Part shown: in pieces, positions 3,065 through 18,619 of the stretch
How the letters are laid out: each line of letters opens with the position of its first letter
How positions within the stretch are numbered: the first letter of the stretch is position 1
From: a virus
Strand: one strand, 5' to 3'
IMG/VR virus record: IMGVR_UViG_3300045118_000063
Span: 1-22,956 of that record
DNA: 22,956 bases
Program-made: the position numbers and the translations under genes
The notes under the pieces: generated by a model
Databases searched by the model: none
Told to the model about the DNA's origin: nothing
What the model saw: the letters and a program-made list of their open reading frames with translations, nothing else

Positions 3065-3685
3065 CTACTTCTTGAACGCCACATAGGCCACCCCCACGAT
3101 AACCCCGACAATGACACCCGTCTTTACCCGGCCAAGCAGTCGGGACAGTCGAAGGTCTCGGGCCAAGGACTTCCTCAATTCATCACAAGCCTCGGCCTGG
3201 GCCAGGGTCTTCTCGTATAGCCCCCTGTATTTGTCCCCGATAACCACGGCCGCATCGTATTTCGCCGTGAGGGCAAATATGACCGATTGCTGGTCCGAAA
3301 TGACCCCCTGGGCCAGGGAGAACTTTTCCTTGAGGGCCACGACCTCGGCCGATAGAAGGATCACCCGTTCGGAGTCCGTCGCGGCCGCGGCCAGACGCCT
3401 CTCCAGGCCGGCGATTTCCTCGTCCTTTTTCCCGATGGCCGCATTCGTCTGACCAATGGAACCGTTCAACTGACCAATGATGGAATCCTTCTTGGCGATG
3501 ATGTCCCGCTGTCTCTCGACCTCGCGGAGGGCCTCCTTGGTTTCGGCGCGGGAAACACGAAGGGCCTTGTATGCCCCGAACCTGATTGACGTTGAGTCGT
3601 ATACGTCACACCCCCGGAGAAGCCAGACGGCAAATAGCCCGACCAGCACAACCCCGACATACACCGCAACATTTTTCTTCTTCAT
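3065..3685 (-). CDS. Membrane-anchored coiled-coil protein, spanin-like layout
   Basis: A 206-aa protein with an N-terminal membrane span (about 5-23, after MKKKN), a long heptad-rich region (about 45-135, including QRDIIAKKDSIIGQLN and KKDEEIAGLERRL), a second helical stretch, and a C-terminal hydrophobic segment (about 188-204, VKTGVIVGVIVGVAYVAF). N-terminal anchor plus periplasmic coiled coil is the layout of i-spanins (Rz); the extra C-terminal span would instead fit a protein touching both membranes. C26 follows LLRG, which is not a good lipobox. The ATG at 3685 overlaps the stop of the giant upstream gene (ATGA), with GGGGGT about 9 bases before it. A longer upstream reading is rejected on this basis. 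A lysis role is inferred from layout and from position near TerS/TerL. Confidence 0.6.
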   Translation of the reverse strand: MKKKNVAVYVGVVLVGLFAVWLLRGCDVYDSTSIRFGAYKALRVSRAETKEALREVERQRDIIAKKDSIIGQLNGSIGQTNAAIGKKDEEIAGLERRLAAAATDSERVILLSAEVVALKEKFSLAQGVISDQQSVIFALTAKYDAAVVIGDKYRGLYEKTLAQAEACDELRKSLARDLRLSRLLGRVKTGVIVGVIVGVAYVAFKK

Positions 3686-6600
3686 CGGATATTGACCCCC
3701 AAACGTTTTTCCAGGCCCGTCCTGACTCCGGTCTTCTGGGCCCGTATGGTATCCGTATAAAGCCTCTCCCAATCCTCTTTCTGAAACGTATACTGCCTGC
3801 TCCACGATTGATGGGGAATCTGGCCAAGAGTCTTTGTCATCTCGTCGGCCACATCGCGGAACTCCTTATTCCAGGAGAACAACTCGTTCTTTGCCGCCTG
3901 AATATCACCTTTTTCGATGAATCTTTGTGCCCTAAGCCGAGCCGTGTTATACCCGACCTCGGCCTTGTTGTTGACCCGGAAAACGTCGTCCGTCAGGGAC
4001 GGAACCACACTCCTTGATACCCGCCCCTTTATCTGCTCCATGATTGCGCCCGGCGTCGGGTTCCCGCCGAAACTCCCGAACAGGTTCCGCATGACAGATT
4101 GGACCTTGAGCGGCGAAATCCCCAGGCGTTTCCCGATTTCCCGGAACACGTCCGGGGTATATTCCGTATACTGCTCCTCCGGCTTAACGGACTGAAGTCG
4201 TTCCGGGACGATTGGTTTTCCCCAATACAAGTCTCGTCCGCCTGGACCACTGGCCAACTCAACCGGAGCCTTGAACACGGGGGGCATAAGCCCGGAGATG
4301 GCCCGCCCGAGGTCAACCTTCCCGCCACGTTCGAACTCTGTCGGGGAGAGTTCGTTCAATAGCCGCAGGGCCTCCTGCCCAATGTTGACCTTCTTCTTTG
4401 CAAACATGAAGTCAAGCATGTGTTCAATGGGGTTGAAAATCATCGTCCCGATGTCGCCCTTCGGAATCGGGACATAGTTCACTTCCTCCCGCTTCGTTTT
4501 CGGGTTCGTTTTCATCCCCGTGACAATGACAAAATATTTGTCCCGGATATCCTGGGAAATGGCCGCGTGTTCTTCCGGGAAAAATGCCCGGTTATACAGA
4601 TACGTAATAAGTCCTGGGGTAAGGACCCACGCGGCGGCCTTTGTCAACGCCTTCGCCGCCGGGACACCCCACTTCCCCTTCCCGGCAAGTGTGCCTATGG
4701 TAGCATATTTCGCCTGCATACGGGCGTTGAGGAACGGAATCCAGGAACTAAACACCTTGACGGTGTGTCCGGCCATGTTGAAATCAACCGTTCCGCTCCT
4801 CGCAAAGAAGGCCGCCTCCTCTGGCGTGTATCCCATTTTCATGGCCTTCTTCATTATCCCAAGGCGGGGTGTGAGTTCGGTCGTCGTGACCAGGGCGCGG
4901 AGAAGACTGAGGGGGTTTGTGACCGTCCGTCGGAACTCGCCCATCGGCCCCTCAAAAAGCCCCTTGGACTTCATGCCCGGTGCCGTCCCACGCTTTCCAA
5001 GCCCAGCCCGCGTATAGTCCCTCTGAATCAATCCCCCGAACCCGCCGCCCTCTTCCATGTATTGGCGGAACAGTTTCGTGTTGAATCCGAACGCCGGGCC
5101 AACGGACTGAAAAAATCCCCCAACCCAGGCCGCAGGGCTAAATGGAATCGGGGATGTCGTGGCCCACATCTGGATATCACGGAATATGTTCCCGATGGCA
5201 AACGGGAGATAATACCCCGTTGTCCCCGCCGTCATGAGGCTCCTCGTCCCGCGAAGGACGGAATCAAGGATGGTGATTTCCTGGGTGTTGAAGTTTTGCA
5301 GGGACTCGATGATTTCGTTCGGGGCCGCCCACTTCTCCACGATCCCATCCCTGATGACACCGAACATCCCGCCGCCCTTCTTTGGCTTTTCCCCTCTCTT
5401 GAGTTTATACAGTATCTCCTTGGTCCACGATGATTTTTCGGCCAAGTCTGACAGGCGGAGAAGGGCCAGGTTCTTTTCGACAAGGTGCCGAGTGATAAAA
5501 AGGCGGTCCATGATAGCCTGGGCGGGGTGAATCATGGACGACTCTTTTGGGGCACCCTCAAGACTATACAGGATATCCTGGGAAATCTTGAAATAGTCCT
5601 GCCCCGGCTCCATTTTGTCAACGTTGTATTTCTCGATATAGGACTCTAGTTTTTCGACTATCTCATACGGCAACCACGCCTTGTTTCTTTCCCTGATTAT
5701 GGCATACCCCTTGGGGGTGAGGATTTTCGCCTCGACCATTGGGACCAATATTTCGGCGTCGGCCCATTCGTAAAACCGCTGGGCGGTGTCCTCAATCAAT
5801 TTCATCTCGGTCGGGGTCATGGACTTCCGCATATTCTCAAGGGCCTTGGCAGACGTTTCAAGTGTCACCCCGCCGGGGTTTTGGTAGCCCCACTCGGCCC
5901 GCTCGATGTTCCTCCGTATAATGAGGTAGTCCCAAAGTTCTGCCTCATACTGTCTTGCCGGGTGAAGGATTGTCTTGAGCCGCTCCCTCGCCCCGACAAC
6001 TCGGGCATTCGTGATGGCCGACAGTCTCCTGGACGCCGCATAGGCGGATTCACCGATGGGAACCTTCTTTCCGGTCGTTTTCCCGATTTCTTTCTCCAGG
6101 CGGTAAATCGGGTCATACCGGTCAAGCATCTCGTATGTCATGGTCTTGCCGAATCTCTCGGCTTCCGCATACGCCTGGTCCCACGCGGAACCCCCCCGGT
6201 GAACCTGGTTCCTGATGGCCACTTCCTCTGGAGATAGCGTTCTCGGCTTTCGCTTCGGCTTGAATCCAGGGGGGACAATCCCAACCGAGGTGTCAAAGAA
6301 TCCGCCCTCGCCGTCGGCAAGATAGGTCTTGCCCGTCCCCCGCGATTGCCAAATTTGCCCCTTGTCTCCGGTGACCGCGTATTCTACATCATCCGGGAGC
6401 TGGTCGATTGTTAGTTTCGGCCCATTCCCCGCCGTCGTTTCTTTCGGGGTCACGACCAGATCAGGGTAGTCTTTTAGGACATCGGCAGGGACTGGTTTGC
6501 CCATCTTCAGCGATTTTACGGCATTTCGGATTCTGGAAACTTCTTCCTTCGGAAGTAATATTTCCAACGACCTTAAAGTTCCACCGTTTGGATTACTGGA

Positions 6601-8556
6601 AAAATCCGCAATCGCCCTTTTTATCGAGTTGTTCTTTTCTACGAAATGGGCAATAGACTGCTCGATAATTGGGACAGCCTTATCCCCGACAAACGCACCG
6701 ATAGTCTTTTCTCCCCTGGAAATAGCCTCCGATAATCTATGTTTACCATCAATAACGATAACATCTGGAGGCACACCAAAGCGTCCCTCTAATCTGCCAA
6801 CCTGATTTACGTTGACATCAACAATAATTGGTCCAGCACTTGTTGATCTTCCAGTAATCGGCGATGCTGTTCCAACAGAATTTATCGGAATATCCATTTT
6901 CCTAAAATGGCTACTTGGAACCCACTTGTCAACAACATCGCTCCTTATTCTTCCGACATTCCCCGGTTGTTCCATAAGGATTGATCCGACATCATCCCTT
7001 GTCATTTCCAACAATTCTTTTGGTTTCGCAGATGAAATGGCCACTTCTTTGGCGATGGGCGACGGGCCCTTCGGCCCAGGGGCCACAACCTCGGCCACCG
7101 CCTCCGTCATTGACTTCACGGCCGGCGGAGGCAACGGCTTGGGTTCCGGGGAAAGCCCCCCCTCGGCCGCCAGTCTTTTTTCGCGGAGCTTCTTCTTGCC
7201 GGCCTCATACTTGGCTATCTCTTCTGGAGAACCCTGGAATGTCGGCTCCTCAACAGGATATGGGTTTTTCATTCGGCTCCGTTCTGTTCTTACCCCGAAC
7301 GGAGAAGATTGATATGTGCCCCTCCGGGAAACGATGTATTCGGCGACTTCCGGGCTAAAATGACCCTCCTCCATGAAGTATTCTACGAGTTCCTTTTGGG
7401 TCGAACCCTTGTCATTTGTGAGGACATCGGATATCCAATCCATCACCCGCTCTGGATATCCACCCTCGGGTTCGCCAGGCCAGGCGGTTCGTTTTGCCTG
7501 GGCGTTTACTTCTTTGTAGAGTTGTTCCACTATGTCCTTGGACATCGCCTCCTTTGGACCCGCCGCCCCCGCCGCCGACTTCACGGCCGGCGGGGGGGGC
7601 TGGGTTGTTTTTGCGGGAGGTGGTTCTTTCGGCGGCTTCTTCGCACTCTTCCCGAGAACAAAATCACGGAGGTCCTTCCGAAGCGGCACACCACCTTCGA
7701 CCGGTTGGACTCCCCGCACCTGACTCACCGGGGCGACCGCCTCCGGTTGCGTCGTCCCCCGCATTTTCGCCGGCAACTCCTCGCCCGTGAATATCCGCTC
7801 GATTTCCAGCCACGCCTCCTCGGGGATGTTCTTTGTTCCCCGAAGATCCCTTGCCGCAGACCTCACCTCCTTAGAAGACAGCGGCTTTCCCCCGGCCAGC
7901 CTCGCCCCGTATTTCATAAGAAGGGCACTCCCAAGGATGCTTCCGCCAAGACGGATGCCCGCCTGCTTCTCTGGATTGTCCGTAACCGTTTCGGCAACGG
8001 CGGCGACGGCATGGTTCACCAATTCAAGCGGGGAAAAGGCAACCCCGGCAATCGTCTTGCCCCATTCAGTCTTTGGCTGATACGTCCCGATTTGGCCGAT
8101 CCTCCCCAGTTCGGCCTCGGCCGTTTCCAACGGCCCGACGGGGGACGCCCCGACACCCCTCGTCTGGAGGCGTTCAAGGACCTTGGGGGCCGCCGCACTT
8201 GCCCCGCCCAATGCCCCAAGGATGAAGGCCCCGGTCCCGGATGCGGCCGTCAACGCGGCCTCGCCAGCCCCGACTATCGGCCTAAGAAGCGGATTCCCAC
8301 GGGGGGTAAAACTCTCGGCCACGGTTTTTAGGATAGACTTCCCCTTCTTCTTTTTTTGCCCCCCCGCCTGATTGGTCACATCCTCCGGGTCCCCGAATCC
8401 GACTGGCGGAGGAGGAATGGCGGCAACTTGCCCATGAACACCGGTCGCCTGGAAATCCTCCGGGTCCCCAAATCCGGCTGGGGGCGGAGGAATAATGCCC
8501 TCGATGCCCACTTCTTTGGGCTTGGCCTTTGGGGGTTTAGGAAGCACTTCGGTCAT
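3682..8556 (-). CDS. Giant polyvalent/internal virion protein with ParB-like module
   Basis: A 1624-aa multidomain protein, probably packaged in the capsid and injected with the DNA. Residues 1-65 are disordered with a duplicated IPPPPxGFGDPED motif. Residues ~85-225 hold Gly/Ala-rich hydrophobic stretches. Residues 300-500 are Pro-rich linkers around a small helical domain (~340-410). Residues ~510-650 look like a ParB/sulfiredoxin-fold module, with VIVIDGKHRLSEAI at 599-612. Residues ~780-1100 are helical. Residues ~1100-1450 (GTTGYYLPFAIGNIFRD; FFARSGTVDFNMAG; GLITYLYNRAFFPEEH) resemble the large polyvalent-protein-associated domains (LPD38 type, from memory). The tail (1450-1624) is helical and charged. 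Start ATG 8556 has AGGA 7 bases upstream. It occupies the place of the ~1300-aa gp16 ejection protein in T7-like phages. I see no lysozyme/transglycosylase motif. Domain names are from recognition only. Confidence 0.8.
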   Translation of the reverse strand: MTEVLPKPPKAKPKEVGIEGIIPPPPAGFGDPEDFQATGVHGQVAAIPPPPVGFGDPEDVTNQAGGQKKKKGKSILKTVAESFTPRGNPLLRPIVGAGEAALTAASGTGAFILGALGGASAAAPKVLERLQTRGVGASPVGPLETAEAELGRIGQIGTYQPKTEWGKTIAGVAFSPLELVNHAVAAVAETVTDNPEKQAGIRLGGSILGSALLMKYGARLAGGKPLSSKEVRSAARDLRGTKNIPEEAWLEIERIFTGEELPAKMRGTTQPEAVAPVSQVRGVQPVEGGVPLRKDLRDFVLGKSAKKPPKEPPPAKTTQPPPPAVKSAAGAAGPKEAMSKDIVEQLYKEVNAQAKRTAWPGEPEGGYPERVMDWISDVLTNDKGSTQKELVEYFMEEGHFSPEVAEYIVSRRGTYQSSPFGVRTERSRMKNPYPVEEPTFQGSPEEIAKYEAGKKKLREKRLAAEGGLSPEPKPLPPPAVKSMTEAVAEVVAPGPKGPSPIAKEVAISSAKPKELLEMTRDDVGSILMEQPGNVGRIRSDVVDKWVPSSHFRKMDIPINSVGTASPITGRSTSAGPIIVDVNVNQVGRLEGRFGVPPDVIVIDGKHRLSEAISRGEKTIGAFVGDKAVPIIEQSIAHFVEKNNSIKRAIADFSSNPNGGTLRSLEILLPKEEVSRIRNAVKSLKMGKPVPADVLKDYPDLVVTPKETTAGNGPKLTIDQLPDDVEYAVTGDKGQIWQSRGTGKTYLADGEGGFFDTSVGIVPPGFKPKRKPRTLSPEEVAIRNQVHRGGSAWDQAYAEAERFGKTMTYEMLDRYDPIYRLEKEIGKTTGKKVPIGESAYAASRRLSAITNARVVGARERLKTILHPARQYEAELWDYLIIRRNIERAEWGYQNPGGVTLETSAKALENMRKSMTPTEMKLIEDTAQRFYEWADAEILVPMVEAKILTPKGYAIIRERNKAWLPYEIVEKLESYIEKYNVDKMEPGQDYFKISQDILYSLEGAPKESSMIHPAQAIMDRLFITRHLVEKNLALLRLSDLAEKSSWTKEILYKLKRGEKPKKGGGMFGVIRDGIVEKWAAPNEIIESLQNFNTQEITILDSVLRGTRSLMTAGTTGYYLPFAIGNIFRDIQMWATTSPIPFSPAAWVGGFFQSVGPAFGFNTKLFRQYMEEGGGFGGLIQRDYTRAGLGKRGTAPGMKSKGLFEGPMGEFRRTVTNPLSLLRALVTTTELTPRLGIMKKAMKMGYTPEEAAFFARSGTVDFNMAGHTVKVFSSWIPFLNARMQAKYATIGTLAGKGKWGVPAAKALTKAAAWVLTPGLITYLYNRAFFPEEHAAISQDIRDKYFVIVTGMKTNPKTKREEVNYVPIPKGDIGTMIFNPIEHMLDFMFAKKKVNIGQEALRLLNELSPTEFERGGKVDLGRAISGLMPPVFKAPVELASGPGGRDLYWGKPIVPERLQSVKPEEQYTEYTPDVFREIGKRLGISPLKVQSVMRNLFGSFGGNPTPGAIMEQIKGRVSRSVVPSLTDDVFRVNNKAEVGYNTARLRAQRFIEKGDIQAAKNELFSWNKEFRDVADEMTKTLGQIPHQSWSRQYTFQKEDWERLYTDTIRAQKTGVRTGLEKRLGVNIR
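6520..7040 (-). other. AT-rich island coding the ParB-like module of the giant protein
   Basis: Codons for residues about 505-678 are visibly AT-richer than the flanking parts of the same gene, with many A/T third positions and far fewer C/G runs on either strand. The island coincides with the ParB-like module. This suggests recent acquisition or a different selective history for this domain. Confidence 0.55.
7112..7593 (-). repeat. 17-bp direct repeat pair coding PPPAVKS linkers
   Basis: The same 17 bases occur at 7112-7128 and 7577-7593 and encode the PPAVKS part of Pro-rich linkers at residues about 322-328 and 477-483. They bracket a ~150-residue segment containing a small helical domain. 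Repeated linkers of this type could serve as recombination points for domain exchange. Confidence 0.7.
8380..8493 (-). repeat. Imperfect 39-bp direct repeat in the N-terminal coding region of the giant protein
   Basis: Units at 8380-8418 and 8455-8493 match at most positions and encode the two IPPPPxGFGDPED motifs (residues ~22-35 and 47-60). The region is Pro-rich and likely disordered. The duplication may be a repeated binding motif or packaging signal. Confidence 0.75.
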
Positions 8557-13334: not shown

Positions 13335-16300
13335 TCAATATGCTATGTTGTGTCCGGCCGTATTCCCGGAACCAGAATCGGACACGCCGTACGCATTTTC
13401 CCAGACATTCCCAGTATAAATATTGTTATCTCCGCCAGCGATAAAGAGAATCTCATTCCCCCCTCGATTGGCCTCAAATGTATTTCCCGTAATACTATTT
13501 TTATCGCCATAGACAACAAGTTGGTTATAGTTGAATCGAATTATATTGCCAGTCACCGAACATAGGTTAGCCCCAGTAAAAAGCGTAATGCCATTTCTGG
13601 CGACAGACCCAGAACCGGTTATAACCATACCAGTAATTTTTGTGCCGGGACGACAAACAAGGATTTCATGGTCTCCAGCTATGGCAGATGAGCCAAGGCC
13701 AATCCACCCCCCTGTAAATGTATGATACCCACCAGCGGCCGCGCCGTCGCCCGTGGTGTATTCGTTGATTACACCCCCAACCATCTGGTCGAACATCGGA
13801 CAAATAACCCCAATAGCTAATTGGCCCCAATCTATGCCCGAAGCCTTTTCCTGGTACAGGAAAACAGCGTGTTTACTGAGTATGCAATGCCAATGGTCAA
13901 AATTGATTCCCTCGCAAGCGTGACGCTCGCTAGAGAGAAATGTCCATGCCCCGAGTTCTGTTTCCACAGACCTGAGATACGCCCCATATTGGACGCGCTC
14001 GACACTTCCGCCCCGGACCATACCATTTACGCAACTCAAGAGACGATATCCAGTACTGCCAACACCGTAAGACCCGCCAAGAAACTGATTTACATAAACA
14101 TCTTCGGCAACAAATCCCCAAAAACACCGCAAATCGAGGGCGTACTTCCAGTAGTACAGCGATAAATCCCTGAAAATATACGATTCCCTGGCAGAGTTCC
14201 GGTATCCCTCGAAACAGATTCCGGTATATGTATTGTCCGTTCCAAGTTGATAAATGGTCATACCCGAAATTACAACAGATAACTTCGCGTTTGCGCCGTT
14301 TTCTTCTGCCCCGTAAGAACTCTGCACAAAGCCATTTGTGTTTGTAAAAGTAACATAGGTATGCCCAATACCATGGCCCAATATTGAAAATCTGTTGATA
14401 CTACCACTTACTGTGACGGGTATTGTTTGTGTATATGTCCCCTTCCCCAGAACAAGGACATCGCCATTAGCCATCGCCGTCACCGCATCTGACAACGTAT
14501 TGGTGCCGGGCGTGACATAGGTTATGCCATAAGCCGACGCTCCCTGGACTCCCTGCGGACCAGTTGAACCAGGAGCACCAGTAGTGCCCTGAACCCCCTG
14601 CGTTCCTTGGTTCCCCTGTGTTCCCTGATTACCCTGAGGACCAGTAGCCCCGGTAGAACCCTGTGCCCCGCTTGCCCCTTGTGCCCCCGTGGACCCTTGG
14701 TTGCCCTGATTACCCTGGTTGCCCTGAGGTCCAGTCGCCCCGGTTGCTCCCTGGGCACCAGTAGACCCTTGATTCCCCTGGTGACCCTGATTTCCCTGCG
14801 TCCCCTGATTTCCTTGAGACCCCTGGGCTCCTGTGGCCCCAGTGGAACCCTGCACACCCTGAGCCCCCTGGGCCCCCGTGGCACCTTGACTTCCGGTTGC
14901 CCCCGTCGCCCCTTGGGCTCCAGTCGAACCCTGGGAGCCCGTTGAACCAGTCGAACCTTGTGCCCCAGTAGCCCCCTGCGGACCCTGTGCCCCGGTATCT
15001 CCCTGTGGACCAGCCGCCCCGGCGGCACCTTGAGGTCCCGTTGCTCCGGTTGAACCCGGGGCCCCTTGGGCACCGGCAGTTCCCTGGTTACCCTGGGTCC
15101 CCTGGTTACCCTGTGGCCCGGTGGCCCCAGTCGCGCCCTGGGCTCCCGTCGAACCCGTAGCCCCTTGGGGACCAGTCGCTCCCTGCGGACCAGTAGACCC
15201 AGTGGCACCCTGCGGCCCTGTAGCTCCGGTGGTACCCTGACTCCCCGTAGTTCCCTGTGCACCCTGGGCCCCTGCCGAACCTTGGGCTCCTTGGTTTCCC
15301 TGGTTCCCCTGATGGCCTTGGTTTCCCTGAGCACCAGTCGCTCCAGTTGCGCCCTGGGCCCCCTGGCTTCCCTGCGAACCAGTTGCACCCGTCGCACCTT
15401 GTGGGCCAGCGGCCCCGGTTGCCCCCTGTGAGCCTTGGGCACCGGTTGCCCCCTGCGGACCGGTGGCACCAGATGCCCCCTGCGACCCCTGAGAGCCAGT
15501 AGAACCCTGACTACCCTGGGCACCCTGGCTACCCTGGGCACCAGGAGTTCCAGGGGCCCCAGAAACCCCCTGTGTCCCCTGAGGACCCTGAGAACCGGCA
15601 CTACCCTGGGCACCAGCATTGCCCTGGGTTCCTTGGGTTCCTTGACTTCCGGTAGAACCCTGAGAACCCGTAGCGCCCTGATTTCCCTGGGTTCCCTGTG
15701 TTCCCTGAGAACCCTGCGGCCCAGTTGCGCCCGTGGCTCCCTGACTACCGGTAGACCCCTGATTACCCTGAGTCCCCTGATTGCCCTGGGAACCCTGGCT
15801 TCCCTGGACACCCTGCGGCCCAGTTGCTCCTTGACTACCCGTAGACCCCTGTGGACCGGTTGAACCCACCGCCCCCTGGACTCCGGTTGCTCCCTGGGAA
15901 CCGGTTGCCCCCTGACTACCCGTAGAACCCTGGGCACCAGTAGAACCCTGGGTTCCCTGATTGCCCTGCGGTCCAGCAGAGCCAGTTGCCCCCTGGGCTC
16001 CTGTGGCTCCTTGAGTTCCCTGTGAGCCTTGAGCGCCTGGGGCACCAAGGACGCCCTGCGGACCCTGAGGCCCAGTAGCACCGACAGAACCCTGTGAACC
16101 TTGTGCCCCGGTGGCCCCTTGCGAACCCTGGGCTCCGGTCGCGCCAGTTGTGCCTTGGTTCCCCTGATTACCCTGATTTCCTTGATGACCCTGAGAACCC
16201 TGGTTGCCCTGTGCGCCGGTCGAGCCCTGTGGGCCAGAAGAACCCGTGGCACCCTGAGGGCCCTGGGAACCCGTGGGACCCTGGGAACCAGTTGCCCCCT

Positions 16301-17162
16301 GCGAACCGGCATTACCTTGGGCACCCTGGGGACCCGTCGCCCCTTGAGAGCCAGTAGCCCCCTGATTGCCTTGAGTCCCCTGAGATCCGGTAGAACCCTG
16401 AGAACCGGTCAAGCCTTGCGGCCCCGTAGACCCGACACTACCCTGGCTTCCCTGCGGTCCAGATGAACCGGTTGCTCCCTGGGAACCCTGGGGTCCAGTA
16501 GACCCGACAGAACCCTGGTCCCCCTGCGGCCCGGTAGAGCCGGGAGCACCAGTTGACCCCTGACTGCCTTGACTTCCCTGGTTCCCCTGGTTACCCTGTG
16601 TCCCCTGACTTCCTTGGGTCCCGGCAGAACCCTGAGTGCCTTGGGTCCCCTGATTTCCCTGGTTGCCCTGATTACCCTGTGGGCCGGTTGATCCGGTAGC
16701 CCCCTGATTGCCTTGCGAACCCTGGGCACCTTGAGAACCGGTTGAACCCTGGCTACCCTGGCTACCGGAACTGCCTTGAGTTCCTTGGGCCCCCTGGTTA
16801 CCCTGACTCCCTTGACTGCCCTGGGTTCCCTGATTACCTTGATTTCCTTGATTTCCCTGGCTACCCTGACTACCCTGATGGCCTTGATTGCCCTGGTTGC
16901 CCTGACTTCCCTGACTACCTTGACTACCTTGGCTTCCCTGGCTTCCTTGACTACCCTGACTCCCCTGACTTCCCTGGCTACCCTGATTTCCCTGGTTCCC
17001 CTGGTTGCCCTGCGTTCCCTGTGTGCCCTGGTCACCCTGGGGACCACCAAAGGCCCCCTGTGCCCCCTGGTTTCCCTGTGGTCCCTGGCTTCCCTGCGAG
17101 CCCTGGGCACCGAAAGAATACCACGCGGTATTATCGGCGTTGCGGACTTTCAGGATTGCCAT
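13335..17162 (-). CDS. Collagen-like fibre protein with C-terminal beta-helix domain
   Basis: A 1275-aa fibre. Residues 1-17 ([17 protein letters not shown]) are a short attachment head of the kind that precedes phage collagen tracts. Residues 18-876 are 286 Gly-X-Y triplets with a single extra Gly (GAFGGPQ) near the start, expected to form a rod-like trimer. Gln is the dominant Y residue, then Thr; Ser, Asn, Ala, Thr and Pro fill X. I see no Lys, Arg or Glu in the tract. Residues 878-1275 look like a right-handed parallel beta-helix (pectate-lyase type): repeated G-rich turns, [15 protein letters not shown] and [26 protein letters not shown] near the end. This is probably the receptor-binding or polysaccharide-degrading tip. 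The ribosome site TAGGA overlaps the stop of the glycosyltransferase gene 9 bases upstream. The tip is coded by AT-richer DNA. Confidence 0.88.
14535..17111 (-). repeat. Collagen Gly-X-Y coding repeat (286 triplets, 9-bp periodicity)
   Basis: Degenerate 9-bp periodic DNA coding Gly-X-Y. The first part (about 16600-17111) is almost purely Gly-X-Gln; further on Gly-Ala-Thr, Gly-Ser-Thr and Gly-Pro-Gln triplets alternate. Synonymous codons vary between units, so the tract has not been recently amplified as exact copies. The periodicity also produces long spurious open frames on both strands. Confidence 0.95.
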
Positions 17163-17169
17163 TTTGTTA

Positions 17170-17174
17170 TCCTA
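17170..17174 (-). promoter_or_regulatory. Shine-Dalgarno of the fibre gene overlapping the TAG stop of the GT gene
   Basis: The minus strand reads TAGGA followed by seven bases and ATG 17162. The glycosyltransferase-methyltransferase stop is within the fibre ribosome site, tying translation of the two genes together. Confidence 0.65.
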
Positions 17175-18434
17175 GATTCTAGCCCCCCCAGGCGGCCTCT
17201 TGTCGTATGGCGACTTCAAGGCAATAAGGTCGGCCTGAACCACAGAAATCTCGTTACCCCTGAAAAAGTCGTTCGGATAATACGTCACCGCCCGGCTAAG
17301 TTGGAACCTCCCCTTATATTCGGGCTGAATATACTTCGCAAATTCCCTGTCTGTGTAATACCAGAAGGAATTGATGTTCCAGAAACTCTTGTGCGTCGGG
17401 TCCTGAAACGCCCCCCGGCCATCCGTTGACGGAACATCAATGAACATCCACCCACCGGGGGCCAGAACACGATAAGCCTCGTTCATCGTGAATACGGGGT
17501 CAGCAAGGTGTTCAACAATATGAGAGGCCCGAAGGACGCCGACCGAACAATCAGGCATCGGCCACCGCTTTTCCAGGTCACAGATAAAATCTGCCGGGGG
17601 ATGCTTATCAACGCTCGAATACCCCGGCCACTTATCAAATCTCCCGCCAAGGTCCAGGCACATCAGACCATTGTCAGCCGCCCACTTCGTCGCCATGTCC
17701 CGGCTATACTTACAATAGTTCGCCTCGGTCTGATTCTGGACATCGACATTCCAGACCCGGCAACTATTGTCCCCGTGAATCCTGTAAAGATAAAGACACT
17801 TGTCTATATGTCTAATTCCACTCGCCCCGTATTTAATGTAAAATCGGCAACATAAGTCGTGGTCGTCCCCTATCTTAATTCTCTCGTCGTGGCCCCCGAT
17901 ATCGAAATACGCCCTCCTGTCCCATGCCCGGACATGATTCGGTGCCCAGAAAACATACCGCATCATGTGGGGGGATGGCTCCCATCCGACCATCTCGCAT
18001 AGCCGATGGCCGTTGTAATCGAAATCACGCCACTCCCACCCCCAGAACGACGAGTAATGGGTAGATGCCCATGTGTCTGAATTGAACTCTGCGGAGTTCG
18101 AATAGGCCATTACAACCCCGTCCCGAATGGCCCCCGCCACTTCGGCCAAACAGTCTGGCGTGAGAATATCGTCGGCGTCAAACTCCAGGATGATGTCGCC
18201 CAAGGAGTTCTGTGCGGCCAATTTCTTGAGCCGACCAATATTGTTCCCGTCGCCATTCCCGGCGACAACCCGAACCCTCCCGTCGGCCCTGATTTCGTCC
18301 GGGACATGCCCCCCGTTATTCTCGACAATGACCCACTCCCAATCTCCGTGGGTCTGCCCAACGAGGCTGGAATGGGCCTCAGAGATAAATTTCTCATGTG
18401 TTGACGGAAGGGGCGTAATGACTGAAATTTTCAT
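17172..18434 (-). CDS. GT2 glycosyltransferase - SAM methyltransferase fusion
   Basis: A 420-aa two-domain enzyme. Residues 1-~240 are a GT-A (family 2) glycosyltransferase: KISVITPLPSTHEKFI at the start, EWVIVENNGG, the metal-binding DxD in FDADD (85-89), a second acidic motif IGDDHDL (188-194) and YRIHGDNS (217-224). Residues ~255-400 are a class I methyltransferase: CLDLGGRFDKWPGYSSVD (SAM-binding motif I region), RASHIVEHL (302-310) and YRVLAPGGWMFIDVP (321-335). The expected reactions are transfer of a sugar from an activated donor and methylation of the product. ATG 18434 is chosen (GGGTGGA six bases upstream, ATGA overlap with the previous stop). It directly precedes the collagen-like fibre, which makes the fibre, or a host surface glycan, the likely target. 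Substrate is not determinable here. Confidence 0.87.
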   Translation of the reverse strand: MKISVITPLPSTHEKFISEAHSSLVGQTHGDWEWVIVENNGGHVPDEIRADGRVRVVAGNGDGNNIGRLKKLAAQNSLGDIILEFDADDILTPDCLAEVAGAIRDGVVMAYSNSAEFNSDTWASTHYSSFWGWEWRDFDYNGHRLCEMVGWEPSPHMMRYVFWAPNHVRAWDRRAYFDIGGHDERIKIGDDHDLCCRFYIKYGASGIRHIDKCLYLYRIHGDNSCRVWNVDVQNQTEANYCKYSRDMATKWAADNGLMCLDLGGRFDKWPGYSSVDKHPPADFICDLEKRWPMPDCSVGVLRASHIVEHLADPVFTMNEAYRVLAPGGWMFIDVPSTDGRGAFQDPTHKSFWNINSFWYYTDREFAKYIQPEYKGRFQLSRAVTYYPNDFFRGNEISVVQADLIALKSPYDKRPPGGARI

Positions 18435-18619
18435 GTCGTATCCACCCAAAACAACCCCGGCCTGGGGTCTGGCGGCTCGGTCGAAGTAATCCTGGCCTTC
18501 AACTCGAAAATCTCATACTCCTTCATCTGTTGTGACTCGACCAGGGCCGCATAGAGCCGACGAAGATACTCCCCGACATCCCCAGTCAGGTCCGTCGGGA
18601 ACGGAAACGCCTTTATCAC
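18431..18619 (-). CDS. Small hypothetical protein (62 aa) in the tail module
   Basis: MIKAFPFPTDLTGDVGEYLRRLY leads into a helix rich in Glu/Gln/Leu (ALVESQQMKEYEIFELKARI), then PPDPRPGLFWVDTT. No membrane span or enzyme motif. It starts with GTG 18619, which overlaps the FN3 protein stop (GTGA), with GGGGAGG 7 bases upstream, and it ends in an ATGA overlap with the glycosyltransferase. The two coupled junctions strongly indicate a translated gene. A role as a short tail adaptor or fibre chaperone is a guess. Confidence 0.6.
   Translation of the reverse strand: MIKAFPFPTDLTGDVGEYLRRLYAALVESQQMKEYEIFELKARITSTEPPDPRPGLFWVDTT

Follow-up and report, generated by a model that had tools for sequence, protein, structure and literature searches.

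A fused glycosyltransferase-methyltransferase encoded beside Gly-X-Gln collagen-like proteins in phages and bacteria is a candidate collagen-modifying enzyme

We found that a viral DNA fragment encodes, directly upstream of a long collagen-like fibre, an enzyme in which a GT2 glycosyltransferase is fused to a methyltransferase. The enzyme looks intact and two-domain, the two genes are coupled, their pairing is conserved and the partner proteins share a Gly-X-Gln type. Judging from gene order and partner composition, we consider it fairly probable that the enzyme is a collagen glycosyltransferase with a sugar-capping methyltransferase, which would act on the collagen encoded next to it.

The DNA analysed here (the window) is a single IMG/VR fragment, 22,956 bases long. 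On its minus strand, tail genes are followed by the 420-aa enzyme, the 1275-aa fibre, two small open reading frames, which are holin-like in our own reading, and an M15 endolysin. For the terminase, the head protein and a 1624-aa LPD38 protein only distant phage relatives were found. The latter (3682-8556) carries an LPD38 polyvalent-protein domain, has weak relatives in Bacillus and Pelagibacter phages and is likely to be an ejected virion protein. At the contig edge (5-550, plus strand), there is a DNA methyltransferase-like reading frame with a DPFAGSGTT motif.

The enzyme gene (17172..18434, minus strand) starts with an ATG at 18434 and ends with a TAG at 17172-17174. Its product matches Pfam Glycos_transf_2 (PF00535) at residues 4-142 (E 1.3e-10, 41.9 bits against a curated cut-off of 23.3) and Methyltransf_11 (PF08241) at residues 281-332 (E 1.2e-6, 29.5 bits against 21.2), and the AlphaFold model is confident and shows two domains (pLDDT 93.6, pTM 0.91). 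The GT-A (GT2) domain covers about residues 1-245 (17700..18434, minus strand) and carries the DxD motif as D86-A-D88 as well as a downstream acidic pair (D190/D191). The class I SAM-methyltransferase domain (about residues 256-420; 17172..17669, minus strand) is recognised by Pfam, matches the methyltransferase phrog_6636 and carries the near-invariant signature PSTDGRGAxQDPTHxSxWN. When 34 relatives were compared, D86, D88, D89, D190, D191 and the methyltransferase motif GRGA-QDPTH turned out to be invariant. Methyltransferase motif I reads LDLGG with a short stretch to the next acidic residue and, because this motif is short, methyl transfer by the enzyme is not certain. Among the profile matches of the methyltransferase half is a D-glucose O-methyltransferase, although this match is weak.

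Structural comparison of the glycosyltransferase half of the model gave the best value for the GT domain of heparosan synthase 2 (Z 24.2, 1.9 A over 210 residues), followed by chondroitin polymerase (Z 23) and SpsA (Z 21); GalT1 domain 5hea was also aligned, and lower values (Z about 17-18) were obtained for human polypeptide GalNAc-transferases. The model and the alignment at Z 24 bear out a GT-A fold with the DxD motif and the downstream acidic pair. We counted the fold matches, which comprise polypeptide GalNAc-transferases and polysaccharide enzymes, toward a role in collagen modification, but a common fold alone establishes no function. NCBIfam holds no equivalog for this enzyme family.

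The fibre gene (13335..17162, minus strand) starts with an ATG at 17162, and its AGGA ribosome site (17170..17173, minus strand) overlaps the TAG stop of the enzyme. The junction reads TAGGATAACAAAATG, so that the enzyme stop lies within the ribosome site and 9 nt separate stop and start. Upstream, a 62-aa reading frame (18431..18619, minus strand) with the C-terminal end ITSTEPPDPRPGLFWVDTT overlaps the enzyme gene at an ATGA. The fibre consists of a 17-residue N-terminal anchor (17112..17162, minus strand), a Gly-X-Y region of 286 triplets (14535..17111, minus strand) and a C-terminal domain of 399 amino acids (13335..14534, minus strand). The triplets are organised as a run of 7 (residues 18-38) and a run of 279 (residues 40-876), which are offset by one extra Gly, and a run of 286 triplets is far above chance. 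The Y position is occupied by Gln in 185 (65%) and by Thr in 72 (25%) of the 286 triplets, together 90%; the most common triplet is GSQ (53 copies), in which Ser sits at X. The repeat contains three Asp and neither Lys, Arg nor Glu. Pfam and the sequence thus confirm what the sequence-only reading had described: a two-domain enzyme with a DxD motif that terminates inside the ribosome site of the fibre, and a 286-triplet repeat with almost exclusively Gln or Thr at Y and no Lys, Arg or Glu. For the C-terminal domain of the fibre no match was found in Pfam, PHROG or the PDB sequences and no relative by tblastn in phages or IMG/VR; folding it as a single sequence was uninformative (pLDDT 35).

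Ten loci of the closest subfamily are informative (the window, L008, L009, L283, L284, L285, L437, L318, L319, L320), and all of them carry an anchored collagen gene directly downstream of the enzyme, and in most of them the enzyme stop and the fibre start touch or lie within a few bases of each other. The anchor of the window fibre is also present in the fibres of the nine further loci that have the enzyme first, and in this subfamily it occurs in forms such as one of 18 residues or MAAVLKIRNETNTGWYSFG. In the remaining close relative (L003), the record ends inside the enzyme and is uninformative on the downstream gene. A DNA scan of IMG/VR for the anchor alone retrieved four anchored collagen fibres (L434, which is the L283 contig, L437, L009 and L440, which agrees with the L319 contig in length and in the fibre and is probably one sequence with it), and the enzyme was located immediately upstream in all four. 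Co-occurrence of enzyme and fibre in related phages had been named as a check on the proposed pair; the close subfamily keeps both genes, whether one starts from the enzyme or from the fibre. L318, L319, L320 and L347 resemble phage DNA inside MAGs, which for L319 follows from the match to an IMG/VR contig.

The genes upstream of the enzyme in the close relatives end in a motif of the ISATEPxxPFAxQVWV kind, as does the 62-aa reading frame of the window, and several of them encode large tail proteins. In its more general form (TEPxxPxxxxVWV), this C-terminal motif is present on the protein preceding the enzyme in most close relatives (the window, L003, L009, L283, L284, L285). It is possible that this end serves as docking end for the collagen fibre. 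The size of its carriers varies between the 62-aa reading frame and a large J-like tail protein, and these differing proteins in front of the enzyme point to an enzyme-fibre cassette that is kept while the surrounding tail genes differ.

Among deposited phages, the sole full-length relative of the enzyme is g90 of Synechococcus phage S-CRM01 (41.5% identity; two records of one phage). Profile scans retrieved about 23 full-length relatives from IMG/VR and at least 79 enzyme loci from bacterial genome contigs; the relatives come from phages and from several phyla of bacteria. In a tree of 97 rows, viral and bacterial enzymes are interleaved, and the starred branches require at least 7 changes between the two labels; the linkage of enzyme and collagen has therefore survived transfers. 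The long branch of L319 in this tree is an artefact, since its enzyme gene carries a frameshift. We also observed relatives that consist of the GT2 domain without the methyltransferase (L024-L030), most of them in records that also hold collagen-like genes (L024, L027-L030). A 136.8-kb phage record (L289) contains a full-length enzyme and gave no collagen match with Pfam; it is a candidate exception, the neighbour genes of which could point to another substrate.

In Micromonospora, a collagen-like protein with a signal-peptide-like start is followed by a TPR lipoprotein and by the enzyme, with gene ends that touch or overlap, and no phage genes were recognised nearby. This three-gene operon of a secreted Gln-type collagen, a TPR lipoprotein and the GT2-methyltransferase is found at 5399-9254 of L354 and at other Micromonospora loci. 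By analogy, the TPR partner may belong to collagen modification, because C. difficile SgtA holds TPR and glycosyltransferase in one chain. Thiothrix loci encode a conserved 164-aa protein between collagen and enzyme (L328 1190-1684, L334 829-1323), in the position of the actinobacterial TPR gene; this protein gave no Pfam match. Thiothrix, Solirubrobacterales, Mucilaginibacter, Planctomycetes and others have their own gene arrangements around the enzyme.

To quantify the linkage, collagen-like reading frames were scored around 102 enzymes, which form 28 clusters at 60% identity. In 16 of the 28 clusters, a collagen reading frame was present at no more than 1 kb from the enzyme, and 10 clusters lacked collagen in the fetched stretch, which for some is explained by short contigs. 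When distances were counted by side (one locus per cluster, only flanks of sufficient length), collagen was found in 14 of 53 flanks at 0-1 kb, in 0 of 46 at 1-2 kb, in 2 of 45 at 2-3 kb and in none of 143 at 3-7 kb. Of 11 records that contain an enzyme relative and are 14 kb or longer (two with a GT2-only relative), 9 had a 9-triplet collagen run, compared with 3 of 47 control records picked by an arbitrary 14-mer; one of these 3 was a poly-Gly repeat. Thus, the conserved pair that had been suggested for related phages holds, and the linkage reaches well beyond phages. In S-CRM01, the enzyme is separated by about 50 kb from the three collagen genes of the genome.

The reverse relation is different. 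A full-length enzyme was absent from all 48 viral records that had been selected by a collagen pattern, this control being taken from the first 120 matches listed and not a true random draw, and among 121 genomes of the order of Micromonospora the enzyme was present in 1 and PF01391 matches in 61, some of these repeats not being collagen. Since collagen without the enzyme is common in viral records and in this order, the enzyme is tied to collagen and not vice versa. We also considered that Gly-X-Gln collagens always need the enzyme and rejected this idea, as no GT2 match was obtained for 9 out of 10 viral records with Gln-type collagen from outside the family, several of which are fragments.

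Gene linkage alone does not identify the molecule that is modified. The median Gln fraction at Y was 0.59 in 65 linked collagens and 0.10 in 88 viral collagen loci, and the corresponding values for Thr were 0.14 and 0.12. When relatedness was limited by counting per cluster, Gln at Y was 0.615 in linked collagens vs 0.096 in controls (Mann-Whitney p 7e-9), with bacterial partners being compared with viral controls and the actinobacterial control being small, and Thr was not enriched (p 0.6). All 16 linked clusters had at least 0.42 Gln at Y, and a value of 0.4 was reached by 11% of the controls. Gln richness as a mere trait of uncharged collagens was rejected by a comparison restricted to neutral collagens (p 1.6e-6). 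The three Gly-X-Gln collagens of S-CRM01 have 0.58-0.67 Gln at Y despite the distant enzyme.

These data bear on the acceptor residue. Glycosylation of Thr in Gly-X-Thr triplets, which the sequence-only reading had put forward, is not supported as the common reaction: Gln and not Thr is common to the partners, and several of them are nearly free of Ser and Thr. The window fibre has 72 Gly-X-Thr triplets, but Thr at Y is not enriched across the family. In seven linked collagens, Ser or Thr occurs in less than 5% of the triplets (L333, L343 and L371, which are complete reading frames, L350, L363 and L369, which end at the edge of the fetched stretch, and L330), and the collagens of L363, L369, L350 and L371 contain no Asn, Lys or Tyr. 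Among 58 linked collagens of at least 25 triplets, Gln always occurs in at least 18% of the triplets, whereas each of the other candidates (Ser plus Thr, Asn, Asp, Lys, Tyr) is almost missing from some of them. Provided that modification takes place in the repeat and has one conserved acceptor, only Gln therefore remains. As no other reactive side chain is found in all partners, Gln at Y is a candidate acceptor, and Thr and Ser would have precedent on their side. That the whole family, in phages and bacteria alike, N-glycosylates Gln at Y of Gly-X-Gln and then methylates is a tentative idea, to which we give a low but appreciable chance. The acceptor could lie outside the repeat or differ by lineage, and Gln may instead serve recognition or stability.

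According to the explanation that we prefer, modification of the neighbouring collagen, the cytoplasmic enzyme would be made from the fibre's own message, just before the fibre. Its GT2 domain would use a host nucleotide-sugar as donor and attach the sugar to side chains on the new Gly-X-Y chain, and the methyltransferase domain would then O-methylate the added sugar and thereby cap it. The modified chains would trimerise to the long tail fibre of the virion. In bacteria, the same enzyme would modify a secreted collagen-like protein ahead of its export. We infer collagen as substrate, a methylated sugar as product and the order of events, and the same is true for any sugar addition at all.

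Several alternatives have to be weighed against collagen modification. The enzyme might modify another virion or tail protein beside the fibre, such as the preceding TEPxxPxxxxVWV protein, with collagen as a mere neighbour. The conserved end motif of the preceding gene in most close relatives would fit, but in Micromonospora and Mucilaginibacter the preceding gene is different and collagen is still there, and Gln-type composition of the collagen tracks the enzyme; we consider this explanation improbable. About the same small chance is given to an enzyme that alters host surface glycans (e.g. the O-antigen) against superinfection or for adsorption and sits in the fibre region as a host-range cassette. 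For pelagimyophages, glycosyltransferases encoded in the host-recognition region have been suggested to act in this way (PMC7029224), and polysaccharide synthases are among the GT2 relatives. However, the linkage is specific to collagen genes and also found in bacterial operons with a secreted collagen. Similarly doubtful is that only one activity is live on collagen, which would mean either sugar transfer without methylation or side-chain methylation with the glycosyltransferase domain as collagen binder. The short motif I and the collagen-bearing records of GT2-only relatives (L024, L027-L030) speak for this scenario, and the invariance of DxD, D190/D191 and the methyltransferase signature motif speaks against it. 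A coincidental gene order in the fibre regions of aquatic phages could be imagined, since fibre regions are hypervariable and contain many glycosyltransferases (PMC7029224), but the decay with distance, the control records and the bacterial operons make it very improbable. DNA modification by the glycosyltransferase was dropped as a candidate, since it does not fit bacterial operons that carry secreted collagens.

Taken together, enzyme and collagen probably constitute a widespread and undescribed system for decorating microbial collagen; a GT2-methyltransferase fusion with collagen was not found described in the literature searched, most subscription papers being outside its reach. Microbial collagens are mostly devoid of hydroxyproline, and the stability and solubility of long ones is an open question. 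If our explanation is true, a dedicated, mobile two-step enzyme that travels with one collagen type through phages and bacteria would partly answer this question, and phage fibres would be added to the few virus proteins known to be modified by an enzyme that a virus encodes. If Gln is indeed the acceptor, N-glycosylation of Gln with methylation would be a new kind of collagen modification. The enzyme may serve as a simple marker by which modified microbial collagens are recognised in genomes, and enzyme and fibre are a ready test pair for collagen biomaterials.

The known system that comes closest is SgtA-BclA3 of C. difficile. The sgtA gene is located immediately upstream of bclA3, and in vitro SgtA attaches beta-O-GlcNAc to collagen-repeat peptides at Thr and Ser (PMC7157674). 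What the two systems have in common is a GT-A gene directly in front of one for a collagen-like protein; in C. difficile, the GT-A product starts O-GlcNAc glycosylation of the collagen region, and the window enzyme would have a comparable role. By its description, SgtA (358 aa) combines a glycosyltransferase with TPR, has no methyltransferase and works on Gly-Pro-Thr repeats, whereas the window family combines GT2 with a methyltransferase and has Gly-X-Gln partners. In the Pfam analysis, the C-terminal TPR domain is absent from our enzyme and the methyltransferase stands in its place; the actinobacterial loci, unlike SgtA with its in-chain TPR, encode TPR separately, in a lipoprotein gene located between those for collagen and enzyme. 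As judged by gene order and domain content, the family is like SgtA in gene logic and is not a member by architecture (no TPR, partners not Thr-rich as a class).

The glycans of BclA include a methylated sugar, and the BclA sugars come from rhamnose and anthrose gene sets and are not known to come from a fused enzyme. The collagen region of this Bacillus anthracis exosporium protein is glycosylated on Thr (PMC8968730), and its repeats are Thr-rich, unlike the Gly-X-Gln partners of the window enzyme family. Mimivirus L230 is comparable as virus-coded two-domain enzyme for the virus's own collagen, but it combines lysyl hydroxylase and glucosyltransferase and acts on Lys (reviewed in PMC9614988), which the repeat of the window fibre does not contain; a lysyl hydroxylase domain was not found in our enzyme by Pfam. 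Collagen-like proteins of E. coli prophages were unglycosylated when recombinant (PMC3368898), as would be expected if a dedicated enzyme is needed. Chondroitin polymerase K4CP, heparosan synthase 2 and SpsA share the glycosyltransferase fold and the catalytic layout (Z 21-24) at about 18-20% identity; K4CP and heparosan synthase 2 extend sugar chains, and all three are without this methyltransferase. The full-length homologue g90 of S-CRM01 shares its genome with three Gly-X-Gln collagens and differs from the window enzyme in its distance from them.
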